A stretch of DNA of 33,002 bases from Bacteroidetes bacterium SB0662_bin_6 (GCA_009839485.1 VXPQ01000028.1:1-33002), one strand, 5' to 3'; counted from the stretch's first letter, positions 4,296-33,002 are shown. Notes: generated by a model from the letters alone, not told the origin. Made by a program: numbers and translations.

Positions 4296-5312
4296 TTACT
4301 CGTAATCATGCTGGAAATACTCGATCATCCGGGCAGGCATATCGGATCCCCTGGTGCGAATACGGTCGGCAAGACGCTTGGCAAACACCTCGGCGGGGTC
4401 GTAGCCAGCGCTGCGAAGCAGATGATTCATGGCAATCACTTCGCAGATCACCGTGATGTTTTTGCCGGGGGTGACCGGAATCTTCACCATGGGAAGTTCG
4501 ACATCCAGCACGCTGAAGGTGTCACTCACCATGCCCAGACGCGTGTATTCCTCTTCGGTATCCCACAATTCCATATGCACCACAATCTCGACCCGCTTGC
4601 GAAAACGAATAGCCCGTATGCCGAACATGGCGCGAATATCCACCAGTCCAAGCCCCCGCACTTCCATAAAATGCTGGGCAAGATCCGTGCCGGCGCCCAT
4701 CAGGACCTGCTCTTCCTTGCGCGTGACAATCACCACGTCATCGGCCACCAGCCGATGCCCTCGCTCAACCAGGTCCAACGCCACCTCGCTCTTGCCGATG
4801 CCGGATTTGCCGACCAGGAGCAAACCTATACCGTATACGGCCACCAGGGAGCCATGAATCGTTTGCTGCAACGCAAACTGGTCATTCAGAAAATCCCGTG
4901 AAATCGCCATGAAGTCGATGGACTGCAAGGGCGTCCGGAAAACAGGCACGCCCTGCCGCGTCGCCATATCCACCATCTCTTTGTCGAGCTCATTGTTTAC
5001 GGTGAGCACAATGCAGGGCACGGGAAAGGAAACCAGGGTTTCGAATGCCTTGCGCCGGGCAGCAACCGGCTGATGTTGCAGAAACCGGTTTTCCGTGTTG
5101 CCCAGAATCTGCACACGCTGATGGGTAAACAGATCGGTATACCCGGCCAGCACCAACCCCGGACGGTGCAAATCGACCTCGGTCACCAATCGGTCCTCAC
5201 CGGAAACATCGTTCACGGATTCAATATCGATCCCCGCCGCCGTCCGCAGATGTTCCACCATGAAAGCCACGGTGATAGATTCTTTCTTGAAGGCTTTCGA
5301 CGTATCGGACAT
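4296..5312 (-). CDS. hprK: HPr kinase/phosphorylase
   Basis: The family phosphorylates and dephosphorylates a regulatory serine on HPr-type phosphocarrier proteins in the cytoplasm. The 338-aa product has the usual two-part layout: an N-terminal domain (1-140) and a C-terminal kinase domain. The P-loop is GKSGIGKS (168-175), then VADD (189-192), and the family signature EVRGLGLVDIRAMFG is at 217-231. No HPr, EI or ptsN gene is adjacent, so the partner lies elsewhere. In Gram-negatives lacking sugar PTS permeases this enzyme usually has a regulatory role; that is an inference here. A family-B repeat sits 24 bases before its start. Confidence 0.95.
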   Translation of the reverse strand: MSDTSKAFKKESITVAFMVEHLRTAAGIDIESVNDVSGEDRLVTEVDLHRPGLVLAGYTDLFTHQRVQILGNTENRFLQHQPVAARRKAFETLVSFPVPCIVLTVNNELDKEMVDMATRQGVPVFRTPLQSIDFMAISRDFLNDQFALQQTIHGSLVAVYGIGLLLVGKSGIGKSEVALDLVERGHRLVADDVVIVTRKEEQVLMGAGTDLAQHFMEVRGLGLVDIRAMFGIRAIRFRKRVEIVVHMELWDTEEEYTRLGMVSDTFSVLDVELPMVKIPVTPGKNITVICEVIAMNHLLRSAGYDPAEVFAKRLADRIRTRGSDMPARMIEYFQHDYE

Positions 5313-5335
5313 AGCATCGGGCCTGATTCAATAAA

Positions 5336-5358
5336 GGATACGCTGATTAAAACCGCTT
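5336..5358 (-). repeat. Dispersed repeat family B, copy 1 (moxR-hprK junction)
   Basis: On the minus strand it reads AAGCGGTTTTAATCAGCGTA then TCC, close to the copy at 11493-11515. It sits between the moxR stop and the hprK start, in the direction of transcription. The AAGCGG plus TTTT part can pair with CCGCTT upstream (5390-5385), so it may form a weak terminator-like hairpin after moxR. Confidence 0.55.
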
Positions 5359-5390
5359 GGAGAGGAGGGGCATGCAGGTACGCAAAGCGG

Positions 5391-6395
5391 CTACGGCACT
5401 TCCACGGTTTCAAGGATCTGCCGCACCAGATCGTCGCTCGTCATCTCTTCCGCCTCGGCCTCGTAGGATACCGCAATGCGGTGCCGCATTACGTCCGGGG
5501 CCAGCATACGAACGTCTTCCGGCGTCACATAGGCCCGGCTTTCCAGAAAAGCATGGGCGCGCGCCGCAAGGTTCAGGTGAATGGTCGCGCGGGGGGAAGC
5601 GCCGAATTCGATCAGCGGAGCGATATCCGACAAGCGGTACTCCGCCGGACGCCTTGACGCCATCACAAGATCGACCATGTACTTTTCAACCCGCTCGTCC
5701 ATGTAGAGTTCGTTCAGCACGGCGCGCGCCGACAGGATATCCTCCGGTCCAACCACTTCCCTGACCTCCTCTTTCTTGCCGGTTCGGGCCATGCGGCGCA
5801 TGATTTCCAACTCCTCGTCACGGGTCGGGTATTCCACGCGAATTTTCAGCATAAACCGATCCACCTGCGCTTCGGGAAGAGGATAGGTGCCTTCCTGCTC
5901 GATCGGATTCTGAGTGGCCAGCACCAGAAAAGGCTCTCCGAGCGGAAAAGTCGTCTCGCCGATCGTCACCTGCCGCTCCTGCATACTTTCGAGGAGAGCG
6001 CTTTGGACCTTGGCCGGGGACCGGTTAATCTCGTCAGCCAGAATCACGTTCGCAAAGATTGGACCCTTTTTGATGGAAAAAGACCCTTCCTTCTGATTGT
6101 AAACGAGCGTGCCCAGCAGATCGGCGGGAAGCAAATCCGGCGTGAACTGGATACGCTGGAATTTTGTCCCGATTGCACGGGCAAGAGAACTGACCGTGAG
6201 GGTCTTGGCAAGGCCCGGTACGCCTTCGAGCAGCACATGTCCATCACCGAGCAGCCCGATCAGCAAGCGCTCGATCATGTGACGCTGCCCCACAACGACC
6301 CGGCCCACCTCGTTCAATAACTGGTCCACGAACGCACTTTCCTTGCGGATGCGGTCGCTGACCCGGGCCATATCAAAGTTTGCTACGATTTCCAC
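5391..6395 (-). CDS. MoxR-family AAA+ ATPase
   Basis: The 334-aa product is a MoxR-type AAA+ chaperone ATPase. Walker A is GVPGLAKT (58-65), Walker B is VILADEIN (117-124) and sensor 1 is ATQNP (160-164). The motif QEGTYPLPEAQVDRF (167-181) is a MoxR hallmark, and a lid domain fills the C-terminus. Members usually act with a VWA-domain (metal-binding) protein and DUF58 proteins encoded next door in maturation of a partner protein. Here neither neighbour is a VWA or DUF58 gene, so the partner cannot be read from context. An ATG at 6371 is an alternative start. Confidence 0.93.
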   Translation of the reverse strand: MEIVANFDMARVSDRIRKESAFVDQLLNEVGRVVVGQRHMIERLLIGLLGDGHVLLEGVPGLAKTLTVSSLARAIGTKFQRIQFTPDLLPADLLGTLVYNQKEGSFSIKKGPIFANVILADEINRSPAKVQSALLESMQERQVTIGETTFPLGEPFLVLATQNPIEQEGTYPLPEAQVDRFMLKIRVEYPTRDEELEIMRRMARTGKKEEVREVVGPEDILSARAVLNELYMDERVEKYMVDLVMASRRPAEYRLSDIAPLIEFGASPRATIHLNLAARAHAFLESRAYVTPEDVRMLAPDVMRHRIAVSYEAEAEEMTSDDLVRQILETVEVP

Positions 6396-17056: not shown

Positions 17057-18850
17057 ATGACAGGCCGACCATTGTTTTCCCCGTTTCACAGGCATCCATC
17101 CATCCGGAACGCTTCGGCGACCGTTATGGCGTGGATTCTCCTCGCATCGTTCCTGCTCGCTCCAACAGCGGCGCAAGCCCAATTCGATTCGCAAGGGAGC
17201 GAATCCGTATCTCCGGCGACCATGGGCCCGGAGATAAATCCTCTCCAGGAGCAACTGACCCGATTCCCAAGTGCAGCAGAGATGATTCCTCTTGAAGGAA
17301 CGGTGGACGCGGATCAGTATATCGTGGGGCCGGGCGATCTCTTCGATATATCCGTGGGCGGCCCTCAACCGCTGCTTGCCCCGACCGCCGTCTCGGCAGA
17401 CGGATATCTGATCGTACCGGAAGCCGGCGCCGTGCAGGTAGGGGGCCTTTCTCTGCAGGAAGCACGCAGCCGGGCGAAACAGGCGCTCCGCGAATCTTTC
17501 GAAAATGTGCGTGTGGAAATCGCGCTGGCGCAGCCCAGACGATTTTACGTGCATGTTTCGGGAGCGGTCCCGTTTCCGGGACGCTATCTGGCCACGCCCG
17601 TGGGCCGTCTGGCCGGCGTGCTGAGTCTGGCTTATGCAGACACCACCCGGGCCCCGACAGGAAACCTGACGTTTCGCCCCGCCCTGCGGAATGTCCTGCT
17701 CTTGCATACGGACGGAACACAGAAAACGGTGGACCTGCTGAGATATCACGCCACCGGCAATACGGAACATAACCCCTATCTGCGGGATGGGGACATCGTG
17801 TCCGTGCCTGCGTTCGACCCCGATTACGGCTCTGTCTTCATATCGGGGAATGTGGCCTTCCCGGGGATATACGACCACCGGTCCGACGATACGCTCTCCG
17901 ATCTCCTTGCCCTCGCTACCGGGCAGGAAACGCCCGGTTATGCACGACAGGTTCGGCTCACCCGCGTGCTTGATGACGGCTCCGTGGAAGCCGAAATATA
18001 TGATGTGGCCGCGCTGTACGGCGGCGGGGACGTACAGGTGCAGGCCCTGGATCAGGTGCATGTGCTGGCCGAAGAAACGGTGCGCGGCGTCGCCGATATC
18101 GAGGGATGGGTGCAATACCCCGGAACCTACCCCATCCTCTCCGGCCAAACGACGCTGCAAGACCTCGTAGCGCTTGCGGGAGGAATGCGTCCCGGAGCGC
18201 TTGCCCGTGCGGCGCATCTCAAGCGATCCACCCTGCCCATGCCGGAACCGGAGTACGAAAACAGATTTGGAATGCTCGCCGGCATACCCGATCTGGTCCC
18301 GGCCGACACGCTGGCCCTGATGCAATCCACCCGGCTGGCGAACATGGGTTTCTTCGGCAGCGCTTATCTGACCCACGACCTGCGGGTGCAAAGCAGCGTT
18401 CCGGTAGACCTGACTGTTGCGCTTGGACAAGGAGCTCCGCCTATTCCTCTCCAGGACGGTGACAAGGTATACGTCCCGCGCGACAACAATCAGGTCTTTG
18501 TATTCGGACAGGTGAATCGTCCGGGATATGTCACGCATCAGGCAGGTATGTCGCCGGAGTACTATGTAAACGCGGCAAGCGGACTTGGGGAAAACGCCGG
18601 AACCTCGTATGTCATCAAGGCCGGTACCAATCGTTTCGTGGAGACTTCCAGGACGGAAATCGAATCGGGAGATCGCATCTTCGTGAACCGGAAAACGATT
18701 CTGGCCGATACGGAAGACTTGCAACGGCTCCTGACGGAGTATCAGCGATTCAGGATGGAAGAACGGTCGCGCACCATACAAGGCGTCGTGGCGTCCATCA
18801 GCGCCGCGACCGGAATCATCGCCACGTACCTGCTGATCCGGAGACAATGA
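17057..18850 (+). CDS. Polysaccharide export protein of the OPX family (Wza-like, multiple SLBB domains)
   Basis: The likely role is an outer-membrane or periplasmic exporter of capsule/exopolysaccharide. The 597-aa frame has a signal peptide (24-41, cleavage after AQA if the ATG at 17126 is used). A Poly_export domain begins at YIVGPGDLFDISV (88-100). Four SLBB-like repeats follow, each with a G-x-(V)-x-(F/Y/R)PG motif: VSGAVPFPGRY (167), ISGNVAFPGIY (262), IEGWVQYPGTY (348) and VFGQVNRPGYV (482). It ends in a hydrophobic helix (577-594), which could be the counterpart of the Wza C-terminal pore helix. No lipobox Cys follows the signal sequence, unlike classical Wza. First gene of the operon; its stop overlaps the next start (ATGA). 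Confidence 0.92.
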   Translation: MTGRPLFSPFHRHPSIRNASATVMAWILLASFLLAPTAAQAQFDSQGSESVSPATMGPEINPLQEQLTRFPSAAEMIPLEGTVDADQYIVGPGDLFDISVGGPQPLLAPTAVSADGYLIVPEAGAVQVGGLSLQEARSRAKQALRESFENVRVEIALAQPRRFYVHVSGAVPFPGRYLATPVGRLAGVLSLAYADTTRAPTGNLTFRPALRNVLLLHTDGTQKTVDLLRYHATGNTEHNPYLRDGDIVSVPAFDPDYGSVFISGNVAFPGIYDHRSDDTLSDLLALATGQETPGYARQVRLTRVLDDGSVEAEIYDVAALYGGGDVQVQALDQVHVLAEETVRGVADIEGWVQYPGTYPILSGQTTLQDLVALAGGMRPGALARAAHLKRSTLPMPEPEYENRFGMLAGIPDLVPADTLALMQSTRLANMGFFGSAYLTHDLRVQSSVPVDLTVALGQGAPPIPLQDGDKVYVPRDNNQVFVFGQVNRPGYVTHQAGMSPEYYVNAASGLGENAGTSYVIKAGTNRFVETSRTEIESGDRIFVNRKTILADTEDLQRLLTEYQRFRMEERSRTIQGVVASISAATGIIATYLLIRRQ

Positions 18851-20073
18851 GCCCTGAAACCATGCATTCGCCGGATGAAGGAGGCGCACCCGGATACGAC
18901 GAGGAGATGCGCCGCGAGCGTGCGGAGGATACGCTTTGGGCCACGCTGGGTACGTTGTACAGGTATCGGCGCCTGGTGATCGGCGTTACGGTCTTTGCGG
19001 GCGTGGCTTCCGTGGTCATCAGCCTGCTTCTGACCAACTGGTACCGCGGCACAGCCCGCGTGCTCATTCCGCAGGGAGGCGAAACCTCGTTGGCCGCCGG
19101 TTTGCTGGGAAGTCTTCCAGCGGGCGCGGCTGCCCTGTTCGGAGGTGGCCCCGGGGGAGACTACACGCGCTATCTGGCCATTCTGACCAGCCGTTCCATG
19201 ATGGAAGCTGTGGTGGATTCGTTCGACCTTATTACTCTCTACGAAACGGAGGACGAAGAATACCCGCTGGAAGAAGCTATTGATATGCTGGAAGACAACG
19301 TGGCGTTCGAAGTGGATATGGAGTACTATTTTCTGTCCGTCTCCGTGCTGGACAAGGACCGCCAACGCGCCGCCGACATGGCCAATTTCCTGGTCCGCCG
19401 CCTCAACGAGATGAGCGTACGACTCTCCAGCGAGGGGGCTTTCGATTATCGCCGCTCGCTGGAAAAACGCTACCTCGAATCCCGGGCCGCCATGGACTCC
19501 GTGCTGTACGCCGCGGAACAGTTTCAGGAAGAGTACGGCGTGTACGACCTGACGTCTCAGACGGAAAGCTTTTTCGAGCAGGTAGGTGCGCTCCGCAGAA
19601 GCGCGCTGGAGGCTGAAATCCAATACGAAGCGCTCCGCGCATCATACGGCGAGGATAATGCGCAGGTCCAGGCCATACAGGAAATCGCCCTCGCCGCCGA
19701 TCAGAAATACCGGCAGGCACTGGCCGGCCGGGAGCAAATGCTCCCCGTGGCGCAGGAGGAAGTACCTGCGGTTGCACGCACCTATGCAGAACTGGAACTG
19801 GAAACCATGATCCAGCGCAGCATCCTTGAAGTCCTGGCGCCGCTATACGAACAGGCGCGCTTTCAGGAGAATCGGGAGGCGCTGGCGGTACAGGTTCTCG
19901 ACGAGGCCATCCCGCCGGCGCTCAAAGCAAAGCCGAAGCGGTCGATCATCTGCATCCTCGCCACGCTCTCCGCCTTTCTGCTGGTCGTGATTTACGTGCT
20001 CGTATATGACTGGTGGGCCAGAAATCACGGGCACTTTCTGCGAAGGCTCCAGGCGCGAACCTGGGCGCAATGA
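18847..20073 (+). CDS. Wzz/Wzc-type chain-length or co-polymerase protein (no kinase domain)
   Basis: This inner-membrane protein is expected to control polysaccharide chain length and link the polymerase to the exporter. The 408-aa product has helix 1 at about 43-62 and a Wzz N-terminal motif (YRGTARVLIPQGG). A long periplasmic coiled coil (about 185-355) leads to helix 2 (about 367-387). Only about 20 basic residues follow, so the BY-kinase domain of Wzc is absent and no separate kinase is visible nearby. A Gly/Ala-rich insert (81-105) follows the first strand. It overlaps both neighbours by ATGA junctions, supporting one transcript. Confidence 0.88.
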   Translation: MSPETMHSPDEGGAPGYDEEMRRERAEDTLWATLGTLYRYRRLVIGVTVFAGVASVVISLLLTNWYRGTARVLIPQGGETSLAAGLLGSLPAGAAALFGGGPGGDYTRYLAILTSRSMMEAVVDSFDLITLYETEDEEYPLEEAIDMLEDNVAFEVDMEYYFLSVSVLDKDRQRAADMANFLVRRLNEMSVRLSSEGAFDYRRSLEKRYLESRAAMDSVLYAAEQFQEEYGVYDLTSQTESFFEQVGALRRSALEAEIQYEALRASYGEDNAQVQAIQEIALAADQKYRQALAGREQMLPVAQEEVPAVARTYAELELETMIQRSILEVLAPLYEQARFQENREALAVQVLDEAIPPALKAKPKRSIICILATLSAFLLVVIYVLVYDWWARNHGHFLRRLQARTWAQ

Positions 20074-21530
20074 CCAGCGAGAAATCGTCCCTTTCTCTTG
20101 ACGCACTCACGCCCGAGCGGCTGTTCGTGTGGACACGGCCATTGCTGTATGCGGGATTGGCTTTCGGGCTTCTCCTGATTGTACTGGGGACCTGGCTTTC
20201 GACCCTCTTGTTGGCTGTACTGGCTGCAGCCTTCCTCGCCGCCCTTGTCTTCGGGGCATTGGCACGCAACGAAGTCTTCCTGCTGTGCGCCGTGCTGGCC
20301 GCCTTCGTCGTTTCAGCCAACTACGAAGCCGGATTTCAGATACAGGAAATCTTTTACGGACTACTGTATTTCGGATATCTGACGTACTGGTTCATAAGCC
20401 GTTTTTTCTTCTACCGGGATCGCGTCCTGAAAACACCCATCGACTGGGCGCTTTTTCTTTTTCTCGTCTATGTTACGCTGTCTCTTGGGCTTACCCCCCT
20501 GCTCGGCGGCGACATGCAAACCGCTGTCAGCGAATGGCTGGCCATCACCATGCTGGCCTTTTACTTTCCAATCAAGGAACTCTGCATTCGGCGGTCCGAT
20601 CTGCTTCCCCAAAAACCTGTCCTGATTAGTCTGGGCTTTGTTGCGCTCTTTATTGCGTTTCGAAATTTCTGGTTTTACCAAACCCACATCAACAACGCGG
20701 AATTCCTGTGGCAGATCGCCACAGGGCGTGTCGTCACGAACGAACATGTGTTGCTGATGGCTGGCCTCGTCGCATTGACCATCCTGTTGTACAGCCGGAA
20801 AAAGCTGCATACGACGGCTATTGCCGGGATATTTACGATCCTGTCTGCAGCCATCGTGATCGGACAAAGCCGGGCCCTGTGGGTGTCTTACATGCTGGGC
20901 ATTGCGGTCATCTTCCTGTGCGTCGATCGGAAAAAGAAATTCCGGATCGTATCCATCGGGGTCCTCGGGGGAGTACTATTCCTCGTGGTGGGGACACTCG
21001 TCTTCGACAATTTCTTTTCACTCATCATTGCCGGTCTTGCAAACCGGTTCCTTTCCCTGCAAACCGCCACGGTCCAGGATATTTCCCTGATCAACCGCTT
21101 CTTCGAGGCGCGCGCGGCATTGGAGTACATCGGCATGAACCCCATCATGGGCTACGGCTTCGGGGTCCCGATCAAATATTACAGCCTCGTCTATGAGTGG
21201 ACGCACGAAACCTCGTTTATTCATAACGGCCCGGTGGGCGTCTGGTACCGCCACGGTCTTATAGGGCTTGGGCTCCTCGGCACGTTCTACATCGGAACGG
21301 TCGTGCGGACCATTCGAACACTGCGTATGCCCGCCATAGCTCGCATCGACCGCATCGTGGCTATTTTCGTCATGGCGTGCCTGATTGCGGAAAGCCTCGT
21401 GGGAAACACCGAAAATCCATTCGCTACCGGCGACAAGACCCTGTTCATCGGAGCCCTGGCCGGCCTTGCCGCCGCATCTGCCCATCGCGCAGCCCACCCG
21501 GTTGCCCGGCCCGAAATCCATGCCGAGTGA
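20070..21530 (+). CDS. O-antigen ligase/polymerase family membrane protein (Wzy_C/WaaL-like)
   Basis: The 486-aa product has about eleven or twelve hydrophobic helices and a larger soluble loop (about 330-400). That loop holds INRFFEARAALEYIGMNPIMG and ETSFIHNGPVGVWYRHGLIG, the periplasmic-loop signature of ligase/polymerase proteins, with the key Arg and the H-N. It would polymerise or ligate lipid-linked glycans on the periplasmic side. Ligase and polymerase cannot be told apart from sequence. The setting with a flippase and a Wzz-like gene favours a Wzx/Wzy-type pathway and hence a polymerase. I chose the ATG at 20070 (ATGA overlap with the upstream stop) instead of 20013. Confidence 0.85.
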   Translation: MTSEKSSLSLDALTPERLFVWTRPLLYAGLAFGLLLIVLGTWLSTLLLAVLAAAFLAALVFGALARNEVFLLCAVLAAFVVSANYEAGFQIQEIFYGLLYFGYLTYWFISRFFFYRDRVLKTPIDWALFLFLVYVTLSLGLTPLLGGDMQTAVSEWLAITMLAFYFPIKELCIRRSDLLPQKPVLISLGFVALFIAFRNFWFYQTHINNAEFLWQIATGRVVTNEHVLLMAGLVALTILLYSRKKLHTTAIAGIFTILSAAIVIGQSRALWVSYMLGIAVIFLCVDRKKKFRIVSIGVLGGVLFLVVGTLVFDNFFSLIIAGLANRFLSLQTATVQDISLINRFFEARAALEYIGMNPIMGYGFGVPIKYYSLVYEWTHETSFIHNGPVGVWYRHGLIGLGLLGTFYIGTVVRTIRTLRMPAIARIDRIVAIFVMACLIAESLVGNTENPFATGDKTLFIGALAGLAAASAHRAAHPVARPEIHAE

Positions 21531-22827
21531 AGGTACAGCCAACCCCGCCGGGCAGGGACAACCCCGACCCGGCCTGCTGGCGAACATATCCTGGCTGAGC
21601 GTTGCCAACGCCATCGTGAAACCGCTATGGTTTCTGTTCATTACGGCGGCATGCATGAGGCTGCTCGGTGTGCGTGAATTCGGTGTCCTTACGGCAGCCT
21701 TGTCGCTGACCATGATCGCCGCGGGTTTCGTAGATCTGGGCATGGCGCAGTACACGGTGCGCGAAGTATCGCGGGCGCTGGACAAGGCATCCCTCTACTT
21801 CTCCAACTTCATGACACTGAGAATCGGGAACTCGGTCCTCGCATGGGGAGGTGCGCTGATTGTAGCGGTCTTGCTCGATTATCGCGGGAGTGCGTTGCTG
21901 GCCGTGTGCTTCGCCGGGATATATGCCCTCACACTGAACCTCACGAATTACTGCCGCAGCATGTACCAGGCATTCGAAAACCTGCGCCAGGAAGCCGTCA
22001 TGCTGATCGTGGAAAAGGTACTGGTTATTGGAGGCGGTCTGCTCCTGCTGTTCGCCACCCGTTCAGCGGCGTGGACGCTCGCCGGCATGGCGCTGGGTAT
22101 GACAGTGACCACGGGCATCAACATCCTGTGTATCGACAGGCGATTCGCAAAAATGCGCAGGTCTCTCGTGAGCAGACGCTTTCTCAAGCGAGCAATCAAG
22201 GTCATGATCCCCTTCGGGTTCGCCGGCCTGTTCACGGTGATGTATTACCGCGTGGATATGGTGATGATCGAAGCCATACTCGGAGCAGTCCCTACCGGAC
22301 AGTACGGAGCCGCTTACCGTATTCTGGAGGCATTTCACACACTACCCGCTATCGTAGGCCTGGCCGCTATCTATCCCAGACTTGCACGGCTACATCGTGA
22401 CCGTGCTCATGCCGATTTTCGGCACCTCTTGCGAAATGGCCTGCTTGGACTCATCAGCATTAGCATCGTTGTCAGCTTGTTGCTCACTATTTTGTCTGAC
22501 ACGGTAATCTGGCTACTGGACCCGGACCCGTCCTATGCTCTTGCTGCGGATGCCTTGCGCATACTGGTATGGACCTTCCCGTTCATATGCGGCAAAACCC
22601 TTCTGTATTTAGCGCTGATCTCTATGGATCAGCAACGATTGGCGGCCATTACGCTTGGATTCGCCGTTCTTTTCAATGTAGCATTCAACACATTCATGAT
22701 CCCGGCGATGGGTATTGAGGGCGCCGCTATCGCTACAGTTCTTACAGAAGTATTGCTTACTGTGATTTTTGCCGCATATTATAGACGGACAGGCTTTATA
22801 TCTACCGAACCACAATCATCCGAATAA
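21520..22827 (+). CDS. Wzx-like polysaccharide flippase (MATE/MVF-type oligosaccharide transporter)
   Basis: The 435-aa product has about twelve to fourteen hydrophobic helices from residue 15 on. Its polysaccharide-synthase-family N-terminus (LANISWLSVANAIVKPLWF, then REFGVLTAALSLTMIAAGFVD) fits Wzx-type translocases, which move undecaprenyl-linked repeat units across the inner membrane. The start at 21520 overlaps the previous gene by 11 bases; the longer frame to 21385 is out-of-frame sequence of the ligase gene. Base composition starts to drift to AT-richer sequence toward the 3' end. Confidence 0.88.
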   Translation: MPSEGTANPAGQGQPRPGLLANISWLSVANAIVKPLWFLFITAACMRLLGVREFGVLTAALSLTMIAAGFVDLGMAQYTVREVSRALDKASLYFSNFMTLRIGNSVLAWGGALIVAVLLDYRGSALLAVCFAGIYALTLNLTNYCRSMYQAFENLRQEAVMLIVEKVLVIGGGLLLLFATRSAAWTLAGMALGMTVTTGINILCIDRRFAKMRRSLVSRRFLKRAIKVMIPFGFAGLFTVMYYRVDMVMIEAILGAVPTGQYGAAYRILEAFHTLPAIVGLAAIYPRLARLHRDRAHADFRHLLRNGLLGLISISIVVSLLLTILSDTVIWLLDPDPSYALAADALRILVWTFPFICGKTLLYLALISMDQQRLAAITLGFAVLFNVAFNTFMIPAMGIEGAAIATVLTEVLLTVIFAAYYRRTGFISTEPQSSE

Positions 22828-22836
22828 CCTCCTCCC

Positions 22837-23556
22837 ATGAACCGTTGGAAAAAATTAATGGGCCTGTGCAGGCATCCCGGTTTTATCCCACCGTTAATAC
22901 GGCATCGGATAGCCGGAGGCATAGAGCATTACGCCATGGTAAAACACCTTGCGCCGGCCACACTTATTGATGCGGGTGCGAACAAAGGGCAATTTTCGTT
23001 GCTGGTGCGCAAATTATTTCCAAAAACCCGTATCATTGCCTTCGAACCGCTCCCCGAATCGGCTGATCGTTACGAACGACTCTTTGGTGATGACAAACTC
23101 ACAACATTGCATCGCCTTGCCCTAGATGTCAGCTCTGGCGAGCGTACCTTCTACGTGGCAAATCGCGGCGATTCCTCGTCTCTATTGCGCCCAGCTCAAG
23201 GATTGCAGATGGCTTTCGGCGGTACGCTATCTCATGAAATATCTGTTGAAACTGTTCGCTTGGACTCAGTGATTGACGCAAAGGATTTACCCGCTCCCGT
23301 ATTGTTGAAAATAGATGTACAAGGCGCTGAAAAACAGGTTATTTTATCTGCCACTAAATTATTGGATTATATCGATCATATTTACGTAGAAATTTTATTT
23401 GCAGATTTATACGATGGACAATCCCGATTCCGCGATGTGTTTCACGAATTGGATGCAAAAGGTTATCGTATGCGTGGCGTATTCAATCAAGTAATCACGT
23501 CAGAATACAACGCCACATATGCCGATGTACTCTTTACACGCGATTTACAGCACTAA
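22837..23556 (+). CDS. FkbM family SAM-dependent methyltransferase
   Basis: The 239-aa product has a class I methyltransferase core: DAGANKGQFS (45-54) is the SAM-binding loop, FEPLPES follows, and KIDVQGAEKQV marks the FkbM family. The likely job is O-methylation of a sugar in the surface polysaccharide, by analogy with other polysaccharide loci. It starts 9 bases after the flippase stop and probably ends the plus-strand operon. Its 3' end overlaps the convergent glycosyltransferase by 23 bases. The gene is clearly AT-richer than the upstream operon genes. Confidence 0.88.
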   Translation: MNRWKKLMGLCRHPGFIPPLIRHRIAGGIEHYAMVKHLAPATLIDAGANKGQFSLLVRKLFPKTRIIAFEPLPESADRYERLFGDDKLTTLHRLALDVSSGERTFYVANRGDSSSLLRPAQGLQMAFGGTLSHEISVETVRLDSVIDAKDLPAPVLLKIDVQGAEKQVILSATKLLDYIDHIYVEILFADLYDGQSRFRDVFHELDAKGYRMRGVFNQVITSEYNATYADVLFTRDLQH

Positions 23557-24721
23557 TCTCTTCGGCGTGACGGACCGCTGCTTCAAGACCATCCACCATC
23601 CTGTCGATCGTCAAATGTTTCCGAGCGTATGCCAACGCATTCGATGAGTACCTATCCTGATCCGCCAGCACTTCCCGTACACTTGCCGCCAGCGCCTCGG
23701 AAGTATGCCCTGAACACAATAGACCGGTTTTCCCGGAACGCACGTATTCCACTTCGGGACTGTGAAACTTCACGCCCCCAGCGCTTTCAGGATGATGCAG
23801 CGACACCACCGGTACGCCAAAGGCAAACGCATGATTCACGGCCAAGCCAAGATACCCTGGCATAAGCATCACATCCGAAGCATACAACCAGGGAGCGGCT
23901 TCCTCGAGCAGCAAGGAACCAAGAAAGCGAACGCCCTGCAACGAACGAGCCGCTACCGTCTTCTCCATTGTTGCTCGCTCCGGCCCATCCCCTATGATTA
24001 ATAGAGTTCCAGGCGTATCCTTCGTCAAAATCTCCCAGGTTTCGAGAAGCATATCCGTGCCCTTTCCCCGAATCAGCCGACCTATATAGACCAGAACAGG
24101 ACTGTGGGGGGAAATGGAAAGTCGCCGCCGAACTGCCTGTTTTCCCTCTGTCGCCAACGTCGTCCGTTGTGCAAACATTGGACGCAAATCCATCGTGTTG
24201 CGCGCCACAAAAATATTGCGATCCGGAACAAACGGGCGCAGCAAATTGGCCCTGCCCTCCGTATAGCAAACACATCCCTCCACTTCTTTTGCCAACGCCA
24301 AACGGTACCTGTCCAGAATATGGCGCCTCGGGTTGAATACCCTGTAGTTCGACGAAAAATGTCCCCAGAGTACCCGTCCCGCTCCAACTGACTTAGCGTA
24401 ACGCAATAAAAAAGGCAACGTAACAGAACGCGGACTTTCCTCCGCAAGAATTGCTGCTGGCGGACCATAAAGATTAAAAACACGACGAAACGGCTGTGCG
24501 TGCACTTTTTCACCAAAAAGCCAGTGATTCCAAAGGTATACCTGCTTGTATGCGGGATCGCTTTCCCGAACCAGATTTCCCAACGAAGACGCTCCCGGAG
24601 GATTCCCGGAACATACGACAAGCCGCCCGTCGAGGCGTTCGTTCAATTTCTCCAGTACCGGAATACGATACCAAAAAATTACCCGGTAGAAAAAGTACAC
24701 GGGGCGATCATTGAAAGACAT
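23534..24721 (-). CDS. Glycosyltransferase family 4 (GT-B fold)
   Basis: The product is about 395 aa. The C-terminal half has the GT4 pattern: LVYIGRLIRGKGTDMLLE, then LLIIGDGPE, VRFLGSL, and the nucleotide-sugar-binding region FGVPVVSLHHPESAGGV. The N-terminal half (MSFNDRPVYFFYRVIFWYR) is the acceptor domain. It presumably adds a sugar to the lipid-linked repeat unit; donor and acceptor are unknown. I preferred the ATG at 24721, since the earlier ATG at 24757 adds 12 unremarkable residues. It is convergent with FkbM-1 and has a 23-base 3' overlap, so it needs its own promoter or one shared with the second FkbM-type gene upstream on this strand. Confidence 0.85.
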   Translation of the reverse strand: MSFNDRPVYFFYRVIFWYRIPVLEKLNERLDGRLVVCSGNPPGASSLGNLVRESDPAYKQVYLWNHWLFGEKVHAQPFRRVFNLYGPPAAILAEESPRSVTLPFLLRYAKSVGAGRVLWGHFSSNYRVFNPRRHILDRYRLALAKEVEGCVCYTEGRANLLRPFVPDRNIFVARNTMDLRPMFAQRTTLATEGKQAVRRRLSISPHSPVLVYIGRLIRGKGTDMLLETWEILTKDTPGTLLIIGDGPERATMEKTVAARSLQGVRFLGSLLLEEAAPWLYASDVMLMPGYLGLAVNHAFAFGVPVVSLHHPESAGGVKFHSPEVEYVRSGKTGLLCSGHTSEALAASVREVLADQDRYSSNALAYARKHLTIDRMVDGLEAAVRHAEEISAVNRV

Positions 24722-24839
24722 GTGCAGCCATTGGAACGGCGAGTTAAACAGAAACAAGGGGACCTTGATACGATCTTGGACCAGATCGGTTCGAGCGAAC
24801 CCGATAGTTCAAGAATGTACCAAAAACCCGGATTAGGGT

Positions 24840-25685
24840 TCATGACTGGCGGTACCAGCATCCCGGTAGCGGTAATGAGCGTTTGTGTGTATTGTCCCTA
24901 TCCAGAGGATGAGGAAACATAGTTTGATACATACCCCTTCTAAATCGATCATTCCGATAGAATGTAAACTCCGCCACTCGCGGAATATCGAATCCGCTTC
25001 CCTTGACAAAACCACAACAGTTGTTGGGGTGAATATGTACAACGCTGTGGGTCCGTAGAAGCCTATCGAAGACATTGGATGCAAGAGTAAAAAATGTTCG
25101 GCGGAACAACGCTTGAAGATTGTGAAACTCAATGACAATAATCCTGAACTGTGCCAAGAGATCCATTGATATTTGCATCAATGTTTCATATTCCATTCCT
25201 TCTATATCCATTTGCAAAATTAGATCGCCCTTGTAATCAGGTATTTTGTTTTTTTTCCATTCATCTAGTGTCATAAAAATTTCATCGGAAAATGCACCCA
25301 CAAATTTCCTGTCAAATTCAAAATTGGGATGAGACTGCGGAACCACCGGCACCGAATAATCCGCCAGATACACCTGCATGCCCTGATTCGCCAGATCAAT
25401 TTCAAAGCCCGACTCCGTGGAAACGCCAGGCGAGAAACCATATTTAATTCCCTCCAGATCATTCGGCAAAAGGTACCCACCGTCGCCATCGGGCCCCAAG
25501 CGAATCAATGGCGCCCCGGCCTGCAAAGGATGTAAACTGCGGATGAGCTTGCCCAGCGCATCCGGAGAAGTACGCCCTTCCAGTACGCCCGCTGGTTTGT
25601 GCTTGGCAATATCCACGCCCAATGCGCCAGATAGCCGAACAATGCTGTCTTTAAGCGTTGCTATAACCAAGGATATGTTATTCAT
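24840..25685 (-). CDS. FkbM-like methyltransferase, second copy type
   Basis: The 281-aa product carries IRLGPDGDGGYLLP (about 61-74), KYGFSPGVSTESGFEIDLA, and DLILQMDIEGMEYETLM, which parallels KIDVQGAE in FkbM-1. It belongs to the Methyltransf_21/FkbM-like group, with a modified SAM loop (no DxGAN). It is not a duplicate of the first FkbM gene and is too divergent to align by eye beyond the core. It probably methylates a sugar or lipid carrier, an inference from context. It lies 82 bases upstream of the glycosyltransferase on the same strand. The codons are the AT-richest in the window, consistent with horizontal acquisition. Confidence 0.72.
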   Translation of the reverse strand: MNNISLVIATLKDSIVRLSGALGVDIAKHKPAGVLEGRTSPDALGKLIRSLHPLQAGAPLIRLGPDGDGGYLLPNDLEGIKYGFSPGVSTESGFEIDLANQGMQVYLADYSVPVVPQSHPNFEFDRKFVGAFSDEIFMTLDEWKKNKIPDYKGDLILQMDIEGMEYETLMQISMDLLAQFRIIVIEFHNLQALFRRTFFTLASNVFDRLLRTHSVVHIHPNNCCGFVKGSGFDIPRVAEFTFYRNDRFRRGMYQTMFPHPLDRDNTHKRSLPLPGCWYRQS

Positions 25686-26371: not shown

Positions 26372-27409
26372 ATGGCGGCGCCTTCCTCGAATGAATCGGC
26401 AAATAGCGACCTCGCTTATCAGGAAGAAATCCTGCAAGGCGTTTCCCGCACGTTCGCCCTCACGATCCCGCAGCTTCCGGAAAAGTTACGCACGGTGGTA
26501 GGCAACGCCTATCTCCTGTGCCGCATCACGGACACCATCGAAGACGAACCCGTCCTGCCCGCCGGGCAGAAGCAGGCTTTCGCGGAACGTTTTGCCGAAG
26601 TCGTTGCAGGCCGGGCGGAAGCAGAGCCTTTCGCGCGGGAACTCGGCGCATTGCTGTCATCTTCCACGACTCCGAGCGAACACGACCTGATCGCCAACAC
26701 CGTCCGGGTCATTCGCATCACCAGCGGGTTCAATACCGTCCAGAAAGGAGCGCTCGAACGCTGCGTCCGAATCATGGCGGGCGGCATGGCGGAGTTTCAA
26801 CAGAACGCCACGCCCGACGGCCTGAACGACGTCCCGCATCTTGATCGCTATTGCTATTATGTCGCCGGCGTGGTCGGCGAAATGCTCACCGAGCTGTTCT
26901 GCGACTATTCCGCCGAGATCAATACACGGCGGGAAGAATTGCTTCCGCTGGCCGTCTCCTTCGGGCAAGGGTTGCAAATGACCAATATCCTCAAGGACGT
27001 ATGGGATGACCGGAATCGCGGCGCGTGCTGGCTTCCGCAGGACGTTTTCCTCGCTGCCGGTTTCGATCTGCGCTCCTTATCCCCCGGCCGGACCGATCCC
27101 GGCTTCGTCAAGGGATTATCCGGGCTCGTGGCGATCGCCCGCCGGCACCTCGAAAACGCGTTGCGGTATACGCTGATCATACCTTCACACGAAACCGGCA
27201 TCCGCCGGCATTGCCTCTGGGCATTGGGTATGGCCGTCCTCACCCTGCGCCGCATTCATGCAACGCCCACGTTCAGCAGCGGACAGGAAGTAAAAATCTC
27301 CCGGCGCAGCGTGTGGACCGTCGTCATCGTCACCAGCGCTCTGGCCCGCTGGAATCCGGCGCTGAAATTCCTTTTCGGAGTATTGACCCGAAAACTGCCC
27401 TCTTCGTGA
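26372..27409 (+). CDS. Squalene/phytoene synthase family protein
   Basis: The enzyme should condense two prenyl diphosphates head to head (FPP to squalene or GGPP to phytoene). The 345-aa product carries [16 protein letters not shown] (25-40) and the first Asp-rich motif RITDTIEDE (51-59). [17 protein letters not shown] (160-176) follows, with the second Asp motif in [13 protein letters not shown] (205-217). Both metal-binding clusters are intact, so it should be active. A hydrophobic C-terminal stretch (about 308-340) may bind the membrane, which is commoner in squalene synthases. No desaturase, cyclase or hpn gene is adjacent, so the product is open. The next genes on the strand are the two MpaB/Lcp-like oxygenases. 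Confidence 0.9.
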
Positions 27410-27461
27410 ATGAAGTCGCCGTGCGGGTCCCGGCTGCTTCGTGGATTTGTACGGAACCTCC

Positions 27462-27484
27462 AGGGCCTGTTGACACTATGCAGG
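27462..27484 (+). repeat. Dispersed repeat family A, copy 4
   Basis: AGGGCCTGTTGACACTATGC then AGG: full consensus apart from the last base. It lies 52 bases after the synthase stop, in the 216-base gap before the tandem oxygenases, and is preceded by CCA instead of the TTA/TCA seen at the other copies. Confidence 0.7.
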
Positions 27485-27506
27485 AGATTAAATCTATTTG
27501 CGTTTT

Positions 27507-27542
27507 CCATATGTATTTTTTGTATTTCCCATATGTATTTTG
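27507..27542 (+). repeat. Two CCATATGTATTTT direct repeats, 22-bp period
   Basis: CCATATGTATTTTT starts at 27507 and CCATATGTATTTTG at 27529. The 22-base spacing is about two helical turns, which suits side-by-side protein binding. Each contains the palindrome CATATG. The AT-rich block is about 85-120 bases upstream of the first oxygenase gene, so it could be an operator or upstream promoter element. It is absent from the gap before the second copy. Confidence 0.45.
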
Positions 27543-27625
27543 CTCTGCGTTATAGCAAGATTGAGACACCTCAGACTTTCCGGCCTGTAAACATGCCAGG
27601 GCTCGATAAGAATTGAACCGGTCAC

Positions 27626-28831
27626 ATGATGAGCGCCGAGCCAAAGAATATCCCTTCTTGCTACATCCCGGGCTATGCAAGGGCCCAAGCCCTCGACCCG
27701 GAGATCGTGGCGAACTACATCGCCCATACGCATATCGGAGACCCCGACGCAGATGCGGTGATCGAACAGATGGCTTCCCTCGACGGGGGAACGGCAGCGC
27801 GGTTATTCAGATTGGGGTTGAATACGGAAGATCCCAAGGAGAGAGAGCAAGTTCTGCGCGATGCGCCGTCCGCACTGCAAAACTTCCTGAGAAAGTTGGA
27901 TACACCGCCTGATTGGGTAGACACCTCCGTCTATATGCCCGGCATTCGCATGTTTCACAGGAACTCGCGGCTGGTCCTCGGCGCATTCGTAGGAGGCGTT
28001 TTAATAGAGGGTTTCTCCACGAATATCAGCAAGTCCTTCATAACAACGGGGCGATTGCGCGAATACGGCGTCCGGCGTTTAAAACAGAATAACCGGCACA
28101 TGATCGAGTTATTCATGCCTGGCGGCATGGAGCGAAGCGGAGACGGCTGGAAGTTGTCTATCCGTGTCCGGCTGGTCCATGCACAGATCAGATACCTGCT
28201 GAAAAAATCCGAAGAGTGGGATACGGAAGAGTTGGGCGTACCGATCAGTGCAGCGCATATGGGGTTCTCCGCTGCCGCTTTTTCGGCAAGATTACTAAAG
28301 CATCTGAAAAGCCTGGGCGCCGAATTCAACGACGAAGAACGCAAGAGTTTTATGAAGGTCTGGCGCCATTCGGGATTTTTGATGGGCGTTCCCGAGACCA
28401 TTTTGTTCCGTGACGAGGAGGAGGCATTGCGGCTATTCGATGTGGGGCGCATGTGCGAGCCCATCAGTGAGCCGGAGGCCATTGCAATGGCGAATTCTCT
28501 GATCAATTCCGCTCCACTGGTGATAGGTATCACGGATCCCCTCGCTCGTCGTGATTTGGCAGGGTATGTGTACCGTGTATCTCGAGCGCTTATCGGAAAT
28601 ACGCTCGCCGATGAACTGAAGTACCCCGCGAACCCGACCTTCGGGGTATTGCAATGGTTTCGGCTGCAATCCCGTTATTCCCAAACGATGAACCGTCTAT
28701 TCCCGAAACGTAGCCGGAATGACAGTTTCTCCCAGTTTACCTCCCTGCTTGAAGCCTCGGCGTTCGATGCGGCGGGCATAAGCTACAGACTGCCTGACGA
28801 TCTGTATGCGGAAGCATCTCAGCAATGGTGA
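27626..28831 (+). CDS. MpaB/Lcp-like (DUF2236) haem oxygenase family protein, tandem copy 1
   Basis: The 401-aa product resembles the superfamily that includes fungal MpaB' and latex-clearing protein, oxygenases that cleave isoprenoid double bonds. Matching elements are TGRLREYGVRRL (141-152), the R-x-x-HA pattern in VRLVHAQIRYLL (H185, the expected haem ligand), WDTEELGVPISAAHMGF (198-214), LLKHLKSLGAEF and VWRHSGFLMGVPETIL (245-260). I see no signal peptide or Tat motif, unlike secreted Lcp, so it is probably cytoplasmic. The ATG at 27626 aligns with the start of copy 2. TTGAACCGG sits just upstream in both copies. The true substrate is unknown; the upstream squalene/phytoene synthase makes an isoprenoid plausible. 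Confidence 0.7.
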   Translation: MMSAEPKNIPSCYIPGYARAQALDPEIVANYIAHTHIGDPDADAVIEQMASLDGGTAARLFRLGLNTEDPKEREQVLRDAPSALQNFLRKLDTPPDWVDTSVYMPGIRMFHRNSRLVLGAFVGGVLIEGFSTNISKSFITTGRLREYGVRRLKQNNRHMIELFMPGGMERSGDGWKLSIRVRLVHAQIRYLLKKSEEWDTEELGVPISAAHMGFSAAAFSARLLKHLKSLGAEFNDEERKSFMKVWRHSGFLMGVPETILFRDEEEALRLFDVGRMCEPISEPEAIAMANSLINSAPLVIGITDPLARRDLAGYVYRVSRALIGNTLADELKYPANPTFGVLQWFRLQSRYSQTMNRLFPKRSRNDSFSQFTSLLEASAFDAAGISYRLPDDLYAEASQQW

Positions 28832-28926
28832 GACCATCGAGCCGGAAACATGGCGAACAAAAGAGGATTACATACCAGAGGGCTTGGCGATTTTTATATG
28901 TAATTCCCCAAAGTTGAACCGGGGAC

Positions 28927-30132
28927 ATGAAGGCTGGTAGTGTGAAAAACACCCCTTCTTGCTACATCCCGGGCTATGCAAGGGCCCAGACCATCCATCC
29001 GGAGATGGCCGCCAACTACATCGCCCATACGCAGATCGGAGACCCCGAGGCTGATGCGGTGATCGAACAGATGGCTTCCCTGGACCGGGGAACGTCGGCG
29101 CGATTCTTCAAATTGGGGTTGAATACGGAAGACCCCGGGGAGAGGGAACACGTTCTGCGCGATGCGCCATCCGCGCTACGGGATTTCCTGAGAACGTTGG
29201 ACACACCGCCCGATTGGGTGGATCTGTCGGCCTATATCCCGGGCATCCGCATGTTCCACAGAAACTCGAGCCTGGTTCTCGGAGCCTTCGTGGGAGGCGT
29301 TTTGGTAGAAGGCTTTTCCACGAATATCAGCAAGTCTTTCTTCATAACGGGGCGGGTGCGCGAACACGGCGTCAGGCGTTTGAGACAGAATAACCGGCAC
29401 ATGATCGAGATATTCATGCCCGGCGGGCTGGAACGAATCGGTGACGGCTGGAAGTTGTCTGTCCGTATCCGGCTGGTCCACGCACAGATCAGATACCTGC
29501 TGAACAAATCCGACGACTGGGATACTGAGGCGTGGGGCGTACCAATCAGTGCAGCGCATATGGGATTCTCAGCCGCTGCTTTTTCGGCAAGATTACTGAA
29601 GCATTTGAAAAGCCTGGGCGCCGAATTCAACGACGAAGAACGCGGGAGTTTTATGCAGATATGGCGCCATTCGAGTCTTTTGATGGGTGTTCCCGAGACC
29701 ATCTTGTTTCACAAGGAGCAGGATGCGCTGAAATTATTCGAGATTGGCAGGATATGCGAGCCCGCCAACGAGTTGGAGGCAATCGCGATGGCGAATGCGC
29801 TGATTAACTCCTCCCCATTGGTTATAGGAATTAATGATCCGGTCGGGCGTCGTGAAATGGCGGAGTACGTATACCGCATATCTCGAGCGCTTATCGGGAA
29901 TGCGCTTGCCGACGAATTGCGGTATCCCTCGAATCGGTCCTTTGGCGTGCTGGAATGGTTCCGGTTGCAGTCCCGTTATGCCCAAGTGATGAACAGGTTA
30001 TTTCCAAAACGCAATCAGAATAATAACTTCTCCCAATTCACCTCCCTGCTCGAGGCCTCGGCATTCGATATGGCGGGCATAAGCTACAGGCTTCCTGACG
30101 CTGTGTATGCGGAAGAATCCAGGCAATGGTGA
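28927..30132 (+). CDS. MpaB/Lcp-like (DUF2236) haem oxygenase family protein, tandem copy 2
   Basis: A 401-aa paralogue of the gene before it, about four residues in five identical by eye. The equivalent haem-ligand region is IRLVHAQIRYLL (H185), with WDTEAWGVPISAAHMGF and IWRHSSLLMGVPETIL. There are no gaps relative to copy 1. The duplicated unit runs from TTGAACCGG (27613 and 28914) to ATCGAGCC past the stop (28836 and 30137), a constant period of 1,301 bp. Both frames are intact, so both copies seem maintained. The 95-base gap from copy 1 has no obvious terminator, so they may share a transcript. It converges on the RND gene. Confidence 0.7.
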   Translation: MKAGSVKNTPSCYIPGYARAQTIHPEMAANYIAHTQIGDPEADAVIEQMASLDRGTSARFFKLGLNTEDPGEREHVLRDAPSALRDFLRTLDTPPDWVDLSAYIPGIRMFHRNSSLVLGAFVGGVLVEGFSTNISKSFFITGRVREHGVRRLRQNNRHMIEIFMPGGLERIGDGWKLSVRIRLVHAQIRYLLNKSDDWDTEAWGVPISAAHMGFSAAAFSARLLKHLKSLGAEFNDEERGSFMQIWRHSSLLMGVPETILFHKEQDALKLFEIGRICEPANELEAIAMANALINSSPLVIGINDPVGRREMAEYVYRISRALIGNALADELRYPSNRSFGVLEWFRLQSRYAQVMNRLFPKRNQNNNFSQFTSLLEASAFDMAGISYRLPDAVYAEESRQW

Positions 30133-30203: not shown

Positions 30204-33002
30204 CTACTCGGGAGAAGAAGAACGCGACGGGAAGTGTCTCTTTCGCCATGCCCCGAAGTTATGTTGCGTCATTACGAGCGCAGGCACGACCAGCATCAGA
30301 AGCACGGTGGCGATGAGCACGCCGAAACCGACGGAGGTCGCCAGCGGCACGAGATGTTGGGCGTGCGTACTGGTCTCGAAAATCAGGGGGGCAACCCCTG
30401 CGAACGTAGTGGCGGAGGTCAACAGGATGGCCCGGAAACGATCCTTTGCTCCGGCAATGATTGCGTCTCTGGCCGGCGCTCCGGATCTTCTCAGGTCGTT
30501 AATGAACTTGATCATCATCAGCGAGTCATTCACGACCACCCCGCTTACGCCGATCAGTCCGTACATCGACCAGATTCCCAGACTCAGGCCCATGAGCATG
30601 TGCCCTGCTATGGCGCCTATGGCGCCCAACGGAACCGCAGCCATGATGATGAGCGGCTGGGAATAGGAACCAAAAGGAATCGCCATCAGCACGTACATGA
30701 TCAGCAGAGCCAGGAAAAGCGATCTGCCCAGATCGGCATTGGCTTCCTGCTGCTGTTTCCTTTGGCCGCCGACAGTGTACGCAAAGGCCGGCTCCTCCGC
30801 CTCCAGACGCGCGAGGACCCCGCGCTCCAGCCGGCGGTTTACCTGCTGTCCCGTGGCGATCTGCACATCCACATCGGCCGTAACAGTCACCGCGCGTCGC
30901 CCATCCACTCTGTGGCGGGCAGCTGAGGACCTCGAGAACCGGGCAGTCGCAACCTGACCCAGGGGCACCTCGCCGCCCGGTGTACGGATCAGATAGCCCT
31001 CGACATCGGTCGCGGAATTACGCTCTTCTTCGGGGAGACGCACATATACCCGCATGTCCTCGCGCCCTCGCTGCACCCTGAGCGCCTCGGCTCCAAAGAA
31101 GGCGGACCGTGCTTGCGCTGCGAAATGACCAAGGGTCAGGTTAAGAGTACGAGCCCCGGGCTTGAGTTCCAGTTGAAGTTCTTTGAACCCTTCGTCGAGG
31201 TTGCTCCGGATATCGAAAACCCCGTCTATGCCGGCTAACTCTGTGGTGAACTCGTCGGCAATCACGGCCAACCGATCCGGATCCGGATGAGAGAGTTCAA
31301 AGTGAACAGGGAGACCCAGGGAAATCAGGTTCGAAGAAATCGAGAGGGACTTCGCCTCCGGAAAATTACCCGCTTCTTCCCGCCATACCTGCTCGAAGGT
31401 TGAGGCTGCAATGCCCGCCCGCTCCCAGTCGACAAGTTTGAACTGGACCGCCCCAAGGTGGCCGCGCGGCGCTTCCACTGCGTTGCCGCCCAAGGGGTCA
31501 TAGAGTGTTGCCGCTTCCCCCACGGTGACAGCCACGCCAACCTCCAGCGGAGGTGCATCCTGAGCCCGGCCCTCCGCGATCCGCGCCACCGCGCGGTGTC
31601 CCGCAGCTTCGAGTTCGGCAGCGATCACGGTCGTACGCTCCCCGGGTGTGCCCACGGGCATCTCCAGATTGGCGGAAACGACCTGGCCCTCGATAGGGGT
31701 GAGAAACTGGTTTGGGACGATACCCGATGCCACGATTCCCATCGACAGGATCATCAGGCCTATTGCAGAGACAAGAATGACAGGGGGATGGTCGACGGCC
31801 AGTCGCAGTCCACGATCCAGGGGACCGTCCACCATGCGCTTGAGCAGGGTATCCACGGCTTTCTGAATGCCACGGATGCGCCGGCTGAGCCAGGCGCCTG
31901 CACGCTCTCTCGGCGAAGACAGGTGGGCAAGGTGGTTTGGCAATACAAGCAGGGACTCGATCAGTGAGAGCAACAGTACCGTGATCACCACGATAGGAAT
32001 GGCGCGCCCGAGTTTCCCCTGGGGCCCGGGCGCCGAAAGCAGTGCCGCAAAAGCCGTCACGGTAGTGAGGACCGAAAATATGACGGGGACGCTCACCCGT
32101 TTTGCCCCCCTGATGGCCGCGGCGAACCCACGAATGCCTCGCTCGCGCTCTGCAAAAACACTTTCACCCACCACGATCGCATCGTCCACGACGATCCCCA
32201 GCGCCAGAACGAGCGCCATCAGAGAAAACATGTTGATGGACACACCCAGGAGCCCCATCACCAGGAAGGTTCCCATAAACGAGATACCCACCCCCACAGC
32301 CACCCACACAGCCAACCCAATCTCCAGAAACAGCGTAAGCACCAGGAACACAAGGAGCATTCCCAGCAGTGCATTCTCGATCATAAGACCAAGGCGTCCC
32401 CCGACTTCCTCGGAATCGTCTTTCCATATCTCGACGGAGACGCCTTCAGGAAGAGTCGGTTGAACTTCGGCCGCGAGATAATCCTTGACGACCTCAGCGA
32501 TCTCAAGCACCTGTTCCTCCGAGGTGCGGTACACATCCACGCGAACAGCCCGCTGCCCGTTGTAGCGTACAATGAGATCGGTATCTGCGAAGCCGTCCTG
32601 TACGGTCGCGATGTCACCGAGGCGAACCGATGTTCCATCGGACCGCGTCAGGACGATAATGTCTTCGAAGTCCGCCTGTTCGTAGTTCTGCCCCAGCGTT
32701 CGGACGAGAATTTCCTCCTCGTCCGTGGAAATTTTTCCGGCGGACAACTCGAGTGAACCCTGCCGGACCGCCAACGCGACATCATCCAGAGTAAGCCCGA
32801 GCGCCCGAAGCCGATGGAGAGGCACTTCAATCGAAACTTCGTACGGGCGGGCGCCGCTGGTCTCGGACAAAGACACTTCGGGTAAAGACGAAATTCCTTC
32901 CTCAATCTCGTATGCCGGTTGGTTGATGTTAAAAGTCTTATAAGCGTATCCGTGGCGAGGAGAGGTGGTGGGGTGGGGGGGGGGGGGGGGGGGTGGTGTG
33001 TT
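30204..33002 (-). CDS. RND-family efflux/export transporter, N-terminus cut off by the window
   Basis: This is the inner-membrane pump of a tripartite RND system; substrate unknown. About 890 aa are readable from the GTG at 32876, but the frame stays open to 33002. The first residues (YEVSIEVPLHRLRALGLTLDD) match an internal porter-domain segment, so roughly 150-200 N-terminal residues are missing. Visible features are large porter domains and about eleven membrane helices in two clusters, with LALGIVVDDAIVVGESVFAE (the Asp-Asp proton-relay helix) and GVSGVVVNDSLMMIKFIN. The C-terminus is basic. No adaptor or TolC partner is visible on this side; they may lie beyond the window. The sequence beyond 32960 is unreliable. 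Confidence 0.85.
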   Translation of the reverse strand, partial: NTPPPPPPPHPTTSPRHGYAYKTFNINQPAYEIEEGISSLPEVSLSETSGARPYEVSIEVPLHRLRALGLTLDDVALAVRQGSLELSAGKISTDEEEILVRTLGQNYEQADFEDIIVLTRSDGTSVRLGDIATVQDGFADTDLIVRYNGQRAVRVDVYRTSEEQVLEIAEVVKDYLAAEVQPTLPEGVSVEIWKDDSEEVGGRLGLMIENALLGMLLVFLVLTLFLEIGLAVWVAVGVGISFMGTFLVMGLLGVSINMFSLMALVLALGIVVDDAIVVGESVFAERERGIRGFAAAIRGAKRVSVPVIFSVLTTVTAFAALLSAPGPQGKLGRAIPIVVITVLLLSLIESLLVLPNHLAHLSSPRERAGAWLSRRIRGIQKAVDTLLKRMVDGPLDRGLRLAVDHPPVILVSAIGLMILSMGIVASGIVPNQFLTPIEGQVVSANLEMPVGTPGERTTVIAAELEAAGHRAVARIAEGRAQDAPPLEVGVAVTVGEAATLYDPLGGNAVEAPRGHLGAVQFKLVDWERAGIAASTFEQVWREEAGNFPEAKSLSISSNLISLGLPVHFELSHPDPDRLAVIADEFTTELAGIDGVFDIRSNLDEGFKELQLELKPGARTLNLTLGHFAAQARSAFFGAEALRVQRGREDMRVYVRLPEEERNSATDVEGYLIRTPGGEVPLGQVATARFSRSSAARHRVDGRRAVTVTADVDVQIATGQQVNRRLERGVLARLEAEEPAFAYTVGGQRKQQQEANADLGRSLFLALLIMYVLMAIPFGSYSQPLIIMAAVPLGAIGAIAGHMLMGLSLGIWSMYGLIGVSGVVVNDSLMMIKFINDLRRSGAPARDAIIAGAKDRFRAILLTSATTFAGVAPLIFETSTHAQHLVPLATSVGFGVLIATVLLMLVVPALVMTQHNFGAWRKRHFPSRSSSPE
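32975..32993. other. 19-base poly-G tract at contig end, likely artefact
   Basis: A run of 19 G's sits between G/T-rich bases at the very edge of the window, unlike anything else here. It falls where the RND coding frame should continue. It probably reflects poor sequence at a contig end; I would not assign it biology. Confidence 0.8.

Follow-up and report, generated by a model that had tools for sequence, protein, structure and literature searches.

Organization of the locus

The analysed window is an entire contig of 33 kb (C28) and belongs to a 2.92-Mb bin of 96% completeness (G000, hereafter the window's own genome; G001-G004 are genomes of the same genus, and f15 is a family of the same order). 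At the right end of the contig, a head-to-head prenyl synthase gene (SQS) is followed by two oxygenase candidates (OX1 and OX2; OX is used for the family in general) and by an RND efflux permease gene (Table 1). The first three reading frames are all intact and lie on one strand, and the coordinates assigned to them in an earlier, sequence-only reading of this DNA are right.

Table 1. Features at the right end of the window.
Feature	Position	Strand	Size and basis
SQS, squalene-synthase-type head-to-head prenyl synthase	26372-27409	+	345 aa; PF00494, motifs, orthologue context
OX1, cytoplasmic MpaB/Lcp-superfamily haem oxygenase candidate	27626-28831	+	401 aa; PF09995, predicted fold
OX2, tandem paralogue of OX1	28927-30132	+	401 aa; PF09995, alignment, tree
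RND efflux permease (truncated 5' at the contig end), convergent with OX2	30204-32876	-	ACR_tran 2e-127

Aligned from end to end, OX1 and OX2 share 79% identity, and no further PF09995 gene was found in the window's own genome; the tree places the duplication that gave rise to them within the genus. The RND permease is 92% identical to a 1063-aa RND protein adjoining the same genes in a related locus (L005). SQS, OX1 and OX2 likely constitute a three-gene operon. No terminator-like site was found on the + strand between the three genes, promoter and terminator counts are at chance level, and the Rfam search gave no match. Further upstream, positions 18847-25685 are occupied by polysaccharide-type genes unrelated to the present finding (a chain-length/export protein, a MurJ-like flippase, two FkbM-type methyltransferases and a GT4 glycosyltransferase).

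Identity of the synthase

SQS matches the SQS_PSY profile (PF00494) with an E-value of 4e-55 and retains both Asp-rich motifs (DTIED and NILKDVWDD). Among the NCBIfam models, TIGR01559 (squalene synthase, 104 bits) scores above HpnD, HpnC and CrtB and is the best match; the solved structures nearest to SQS are squalene synthases. In its Asp-rich motifs, its best model and the sterol-operon context of an orthologue, SQS resembles the FDFT1/ERG9-type enzymes; unlike the members of that group, it scores below the equivalog cut-off (104 vs 286.75 bits).

Orthologues of 61-92% identity are present in four other genomes of the genus and in five f15 genomes. Beyond the order they are found in Acidobacteria, in an alphaproteobacterial bin (72%) and in a gammaproteobacterial bin (66%). 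In G044, a genome of the same order, the orthologue (locus L083) stands head to head with consecutive sterol genes encoding an SdmB-like protein, an SdmA-like Rieske oxygenase, an ERG4/ERG24 reductase, a P450 and a squalene epoxidase (SE). In G001 and G002 the window-type SQS is the sole SQS match, hence the only candidate supplier of the fused epoxidase-cyclase (SE-OSC) of these genomes. Because of the G044 context and of this sole occurrence in G001 and G002, we assign SQS to the squalene synthases of bacterial sterol type as the best reading, and squalene is very probably its product.

Besides the window SQS, no canonical SQS_PSY protein was found in the window's own genome. The second SQS_PSY match (65 bits, contig C48) was considered as another synthase and rejected, since the first Asp-rich motif is absent by inspection; this divergent protein of 291 aa (L067:9374-10249, G000:C48) is possibly non-catalytic.

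Family, fold and residues of the oxygenases

The assignment of OX1 and OX2 to the MpaB/Lcp family, previously made from motifs, was upheld by the profile search: OX1 and OX2 score 61.5 and 51.5 bits against PF09995 (MPAB_Lcp_cat, DUF2236), for which the cut-off is 23. A profile built from 38 OX relatives has a sole match in the PDB, Lcp K30 (E 6e-17). The AlphaFold2 model of OX1 (pLDDT 85.8) shows the all-helical Lcp-like fold. It matches Lcp 5o1l in Foldseek with an E-value of 4e-9 and a TM of about 0.7, and superposes on Lcp K30 (PDB 5o1l/5o1m) over 339 aligned residues with Z 31.9 and rmsd 3.1. The second structural match is t-anethole oxygenase (8s1j, Z 18.4), the identity to which is 8%; all others are at Z 4 or below.

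Lcp is a b-type cytochrome that cleaves C=C bonds, MpaB of the mycophenolic acid pathway cuts a farnesyl side chain, and the nitrile rubber oxygenase Nro1 shows b-haem absorption and gives C=C cleavage products (PMC6311187, PMC12724181). Among 495 Lcp homologues R164, T168 and H198 are near invariant, with T168 in 99.6% (PMC6311187). In the sequence alignment, H185 of OX1, around which a haem pocket had been anticipated, falls on the axial haem ligand His198 of Lcp, while R151, R182 and R189 correspond to R164, R195 and R202; these four residues are kept in 50/50 OX sequences. Other positions differ. T168 is replaced by Asn in all 50 sequences (N155 in OX1), E148 by Ser in 47/50 (S137 in OX1) and by Ala in 3/50, and K167 mostly by Gln, and the overall identity to LcpK30 is 16-18%. 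Lcp is secreted, usually by Tat; unlike it, OX1 and OX2 carry neither an N-terminal hydrophobic stretch nor an RR motif, in agreement with the sequence-only reading, and adjoin a squalene synthase gene.

The T168 to N155 and E148 to S137 replacements, together with the absent export signal, rule out an Lcp rubber oxygenase. OX is a distinct, non-Lcp subfamily of the MpaB/Lcp superfamily, and shares its MpaB-type Pfam superfamily with MpaB and Nro1. As T168 and E148 differ, its chemistry could depart from that of Lcp. MpaB-family Nro1 likewise deviates at both T168 and E148 (PMC12724181), so that the changes in OX speak against Lcp membership and not against oxygenase function. It is highly likely that OX binds b-type haem. 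No MpaB-family member beside a squalene synthase is described in the literature searched.

Recurrence of the pairing

The pairing of synthase and oxygenase recurs, within the genus as well as among Acidobacteriota. In 5/5 OX-bearing genomes of the genus (G000-G004) SQS directly precedes OX, which at this place is single in G001 and G002 and doubled in G000, G003 and G004. G003 and G004 also have a third OX paralogue, a distant one with about 41% identity to OX1 (L060:9277-10479 and L061:9005-10207), adjoining sulfotransferase-like and cytochrome-oxidase-subunit-II-like genes by inspection. In an acidobacterial locus (L010) the order is IspH-SQS-SQS-OX, with OMP and MMPL genes in convergent orientation beside it. 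In another (L157, Acidobacteriota genome G090) IspH-SQS converges on OX-OMP-MMPL, with OX on the opposite strand. The L157 OX shares 44% identity with OX1 and 49% with the L010 OX, and is closer to the subfamily of f15, Nitrospirota and Proteobacteria. That this neighbourhood is kept though OX subfamily and strand differ argues for a selected SQS-OX linkage. New here are this linkage conserved across phyla, the placement of SQS among bacterial sterol-type squalene synthases and the separation of OX from Lcp as a subfamily.

Within the order (60 genomes), a close SQS orthologue and OX occur together in 8 genomes, SQS only in 2, OX only in 1 and neither in 49, one weak partial OX match being left out of the counts. 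This co-occurrence is far above expectation (Fisher 1.5e-7). That value overstates how independent the genomes are, since they belong to two families; with families as the units, p is 0.01. OX is not a requirement for SQS, as G044 and G056 (f15) have SQS and OSC without OX. The presence of PF00494 in 30/30 further OX-bearing MAGs was dropped as proof of pairing, since 87/101 Acidobacteriota carry this domain. SQS and OX probably serve one pathway.

Outside the genus, OX loci mostly have no adjacent SQS, and MMPL or RND transporters are found beside them most often; an RND-MFP-OMF set adjoins OX in relatives. Other neighbours are FAD oxidoreductases, among them an HpnE/PPOX-like gene in L005, L006, L033 and L036, a P450-like protein in L019 and, by inspection, a DXS-like gene in L021. 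The MMPL protein near OX in L036 (12402-14942) matches both the sterol-sensing domain PF12349 and HpnN, and its homologue sits near a sterol operon in L105, in the same genome.

The relatives were collected with two exact seven-residue patterns, a search biased to close relatives, and 35/35 of the named ones are MAGs. Codes like SB, RHO and IRC in the isolate names presumably denote sponge bins, and the nearest relatives appear to live in sponges. Phyla are intermixed in the OX tree, a topology consistent with horizontal transfer.

Cyclases and sterol loci

No SHC/OSC-family (PF13243) gene was detected anywhere in the window's own genome, adjacent to SQS-OX or elsewhere, in accordance with the earlier remark that no cyclase gene adjoins the locus; SE-OSC is likewise not found there. 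A hopanoid role of the window SQS was therefore rejected for this genome. No cyclase was detected in the single-contig genomes G003 and G004, which have the same SQS-OX-OX layout, or in the f15 genomes G019, G029 and G050, in which SQS and OX are present. Thus at least six genomes seem, from their gene content, to make squalene without cyclising it, while OX is kept.

G001 and G002 have a sterol operon away from SQS-OX, with a single-frame SE-OSC fusion containing DCTAE (L101:8820-12428 and L102:6968-10462). Such fusions, of about 1120-1520 aa as called and with the DCTAE motif, are also found in the sterol loci L104, L105, L106, L107, L108 and L109, several of them in OX-bearing genomes. Proteins of 650-680 aa with weak P450 similarity lie near sterol operons or IspH-SQS-OX (L105:2597-4630, L106:12663-14699, L110:10576-12540 and L157:4114-6141).

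A bifunctional epoxidase-cyclase of the SE-OSC kind is already described from the msb cluster, as MsbE (PMC7074536), and sponge-symbiont steroid gene clusters spread by horizontal transfer, Rhodothermia included, are likewise published (PMC9531527). An FDFT1-type SQS, ERG24, CYP51 and lanosterol synthase are documented in symbionts of ten phyla, Rhodothermia among them (PMC9531527, PMC7074536); the window's genome differs in having no SE-OSC. The consulted passages of both papers contain no mention of an MpaB/Lcp oxygenase, and no work combining the MpaB family with sponge sterols was found in the literature searched.

Proposed pathway and alternatives

The reading that we favour, with a probability of about 0.45, is a cytoplasmic haem oxygenase which acts on squalene or a squalene-derived triterpenoid beside the squalene synthase, and the product of which may be exported. 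SQS would condense two molecules of farnesyl diphosphate into squalene. As cytoplasmic b-type-haem oxygenases of the Lcp/MpaB fold, OX1 and OX2 would then take squalene, or a triterpenoid closely derived from it, as substrate; an O2-dependent attack on an isoprenoid C=C bond giving aldehyde or ketone products is the likeliest reaction. The adjacent RND/MMPL system would be a candidate for exporting the product or sorting it in the membrane. These substrates would differ from those of MpaB, Nro1 and t-anethole oxygenase. The parts of this scheme are of unequal strength: C=C cleavage as the OX chemistry has about an even chance, export of the product by the RND system is a tentative assignment, and squalene itself as the OX substrate is somewhat more doubtful still. 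Of the isoprenoid-processing pathway proposed in the sequence-only reading, the genes, the DUF2236/Lcp fold and the recurrent pairing stood, while several residues set OX apart from Lcp.

OX could instead oxidise or cleave sterols, for example at the delta-24 side-chain double bond, with SQS linked to it through shared sterol metabolism; the sterol would be made by the cell in relatives and come from the host or community where there is no cyclase. Full sterol operons in G001, G002 and several other OX-bearing MAGs speak for this, and the delta-24 bond may, by analogy, resemble the terminal isoprenyl bond cut by MpaB. The transporters point the same way, as MMPL adjoins OX in L033, L036 (with the sterol-sensing-domain match) and L157, DUF1329-like or OMP genes do so in L033 and L157, and similar MMPL and DUF1329-like genes lie beside the L105 sterol operon. 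However, the genomes of the order with SQS and OX and no detected cyclase, at least six in number, lead us to prefer an uncyclised substrate over sterols, and the sterol-operon genomes G044 and G056 are without OX. Action on sterols is thus considered rather unlikely. Given lower odds is a C30 carotenoid or apocarotenoid branch, in which an HpnE/PPOX-like FAD enzyme would desaturate the SQS product and OX would cleave or oxidise the polyene. An FAD gene directly follows OX2 in G003 and G004, two FAD orthologues are present in the window's own genome (G000:C44), and relatives of 54-66% identity occur in at least eight other OX genomes; yet in G001, G002, f15 and most OX-bearing Acidobacteria the FAD gene is absent or represented by a distant paralogue (about 38%), and the FAD models fit HpnE and protoporphyrinogen oxidase better than CrtI. 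The two C44 genes are convergent (L086:3544-4938 on the + strand and 4943-6310 on the - strand), and in the window, unlike in G003 and G004, no FAD gene follows OX2.

An equally improbable explanation is that the genes are incidental neighbours, with an unrelated OX substrate and a nearness to SQS that comes from shared mobile or lipid islands. That most OX loci have no adjacent SQS, and that MMPL/RND transporters are the commonest neighbours of OX, would fit such an arrangement. It accords poorly with an adjacency found in two phyla, with the difference in subfamily between the OX of L010 and that of L157, and with the further isoprenoid genes that neighbour OX. An oxygenase of squalene, or of a triterpenoid derived from it, remains the preferred reading. 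Its widest form, a new OX subfamily that cleaves C=C bonds of squalene or sterols inside the cell, in an undescribed triterpenoid-cleavage pathway spread horizontally among several phyla in sponges, is put forward as a doubtful extension.

Significance

Sponge bacteria carry sterol genes, and sponge sterols together with fossil steranes serve as evidence for early animals. If the proposed function is true, such cleavage or oxidation of squalene or sterols would supply a missing step in sponge bacteria, through an enzyme that is directly testable, and could account for shortened or oxidised triterpenoids in sponges. The MpaB/Lcp family would then take in the triterpenoid metabolism of bacteria in addition to rubber and the metabolites of fungi.
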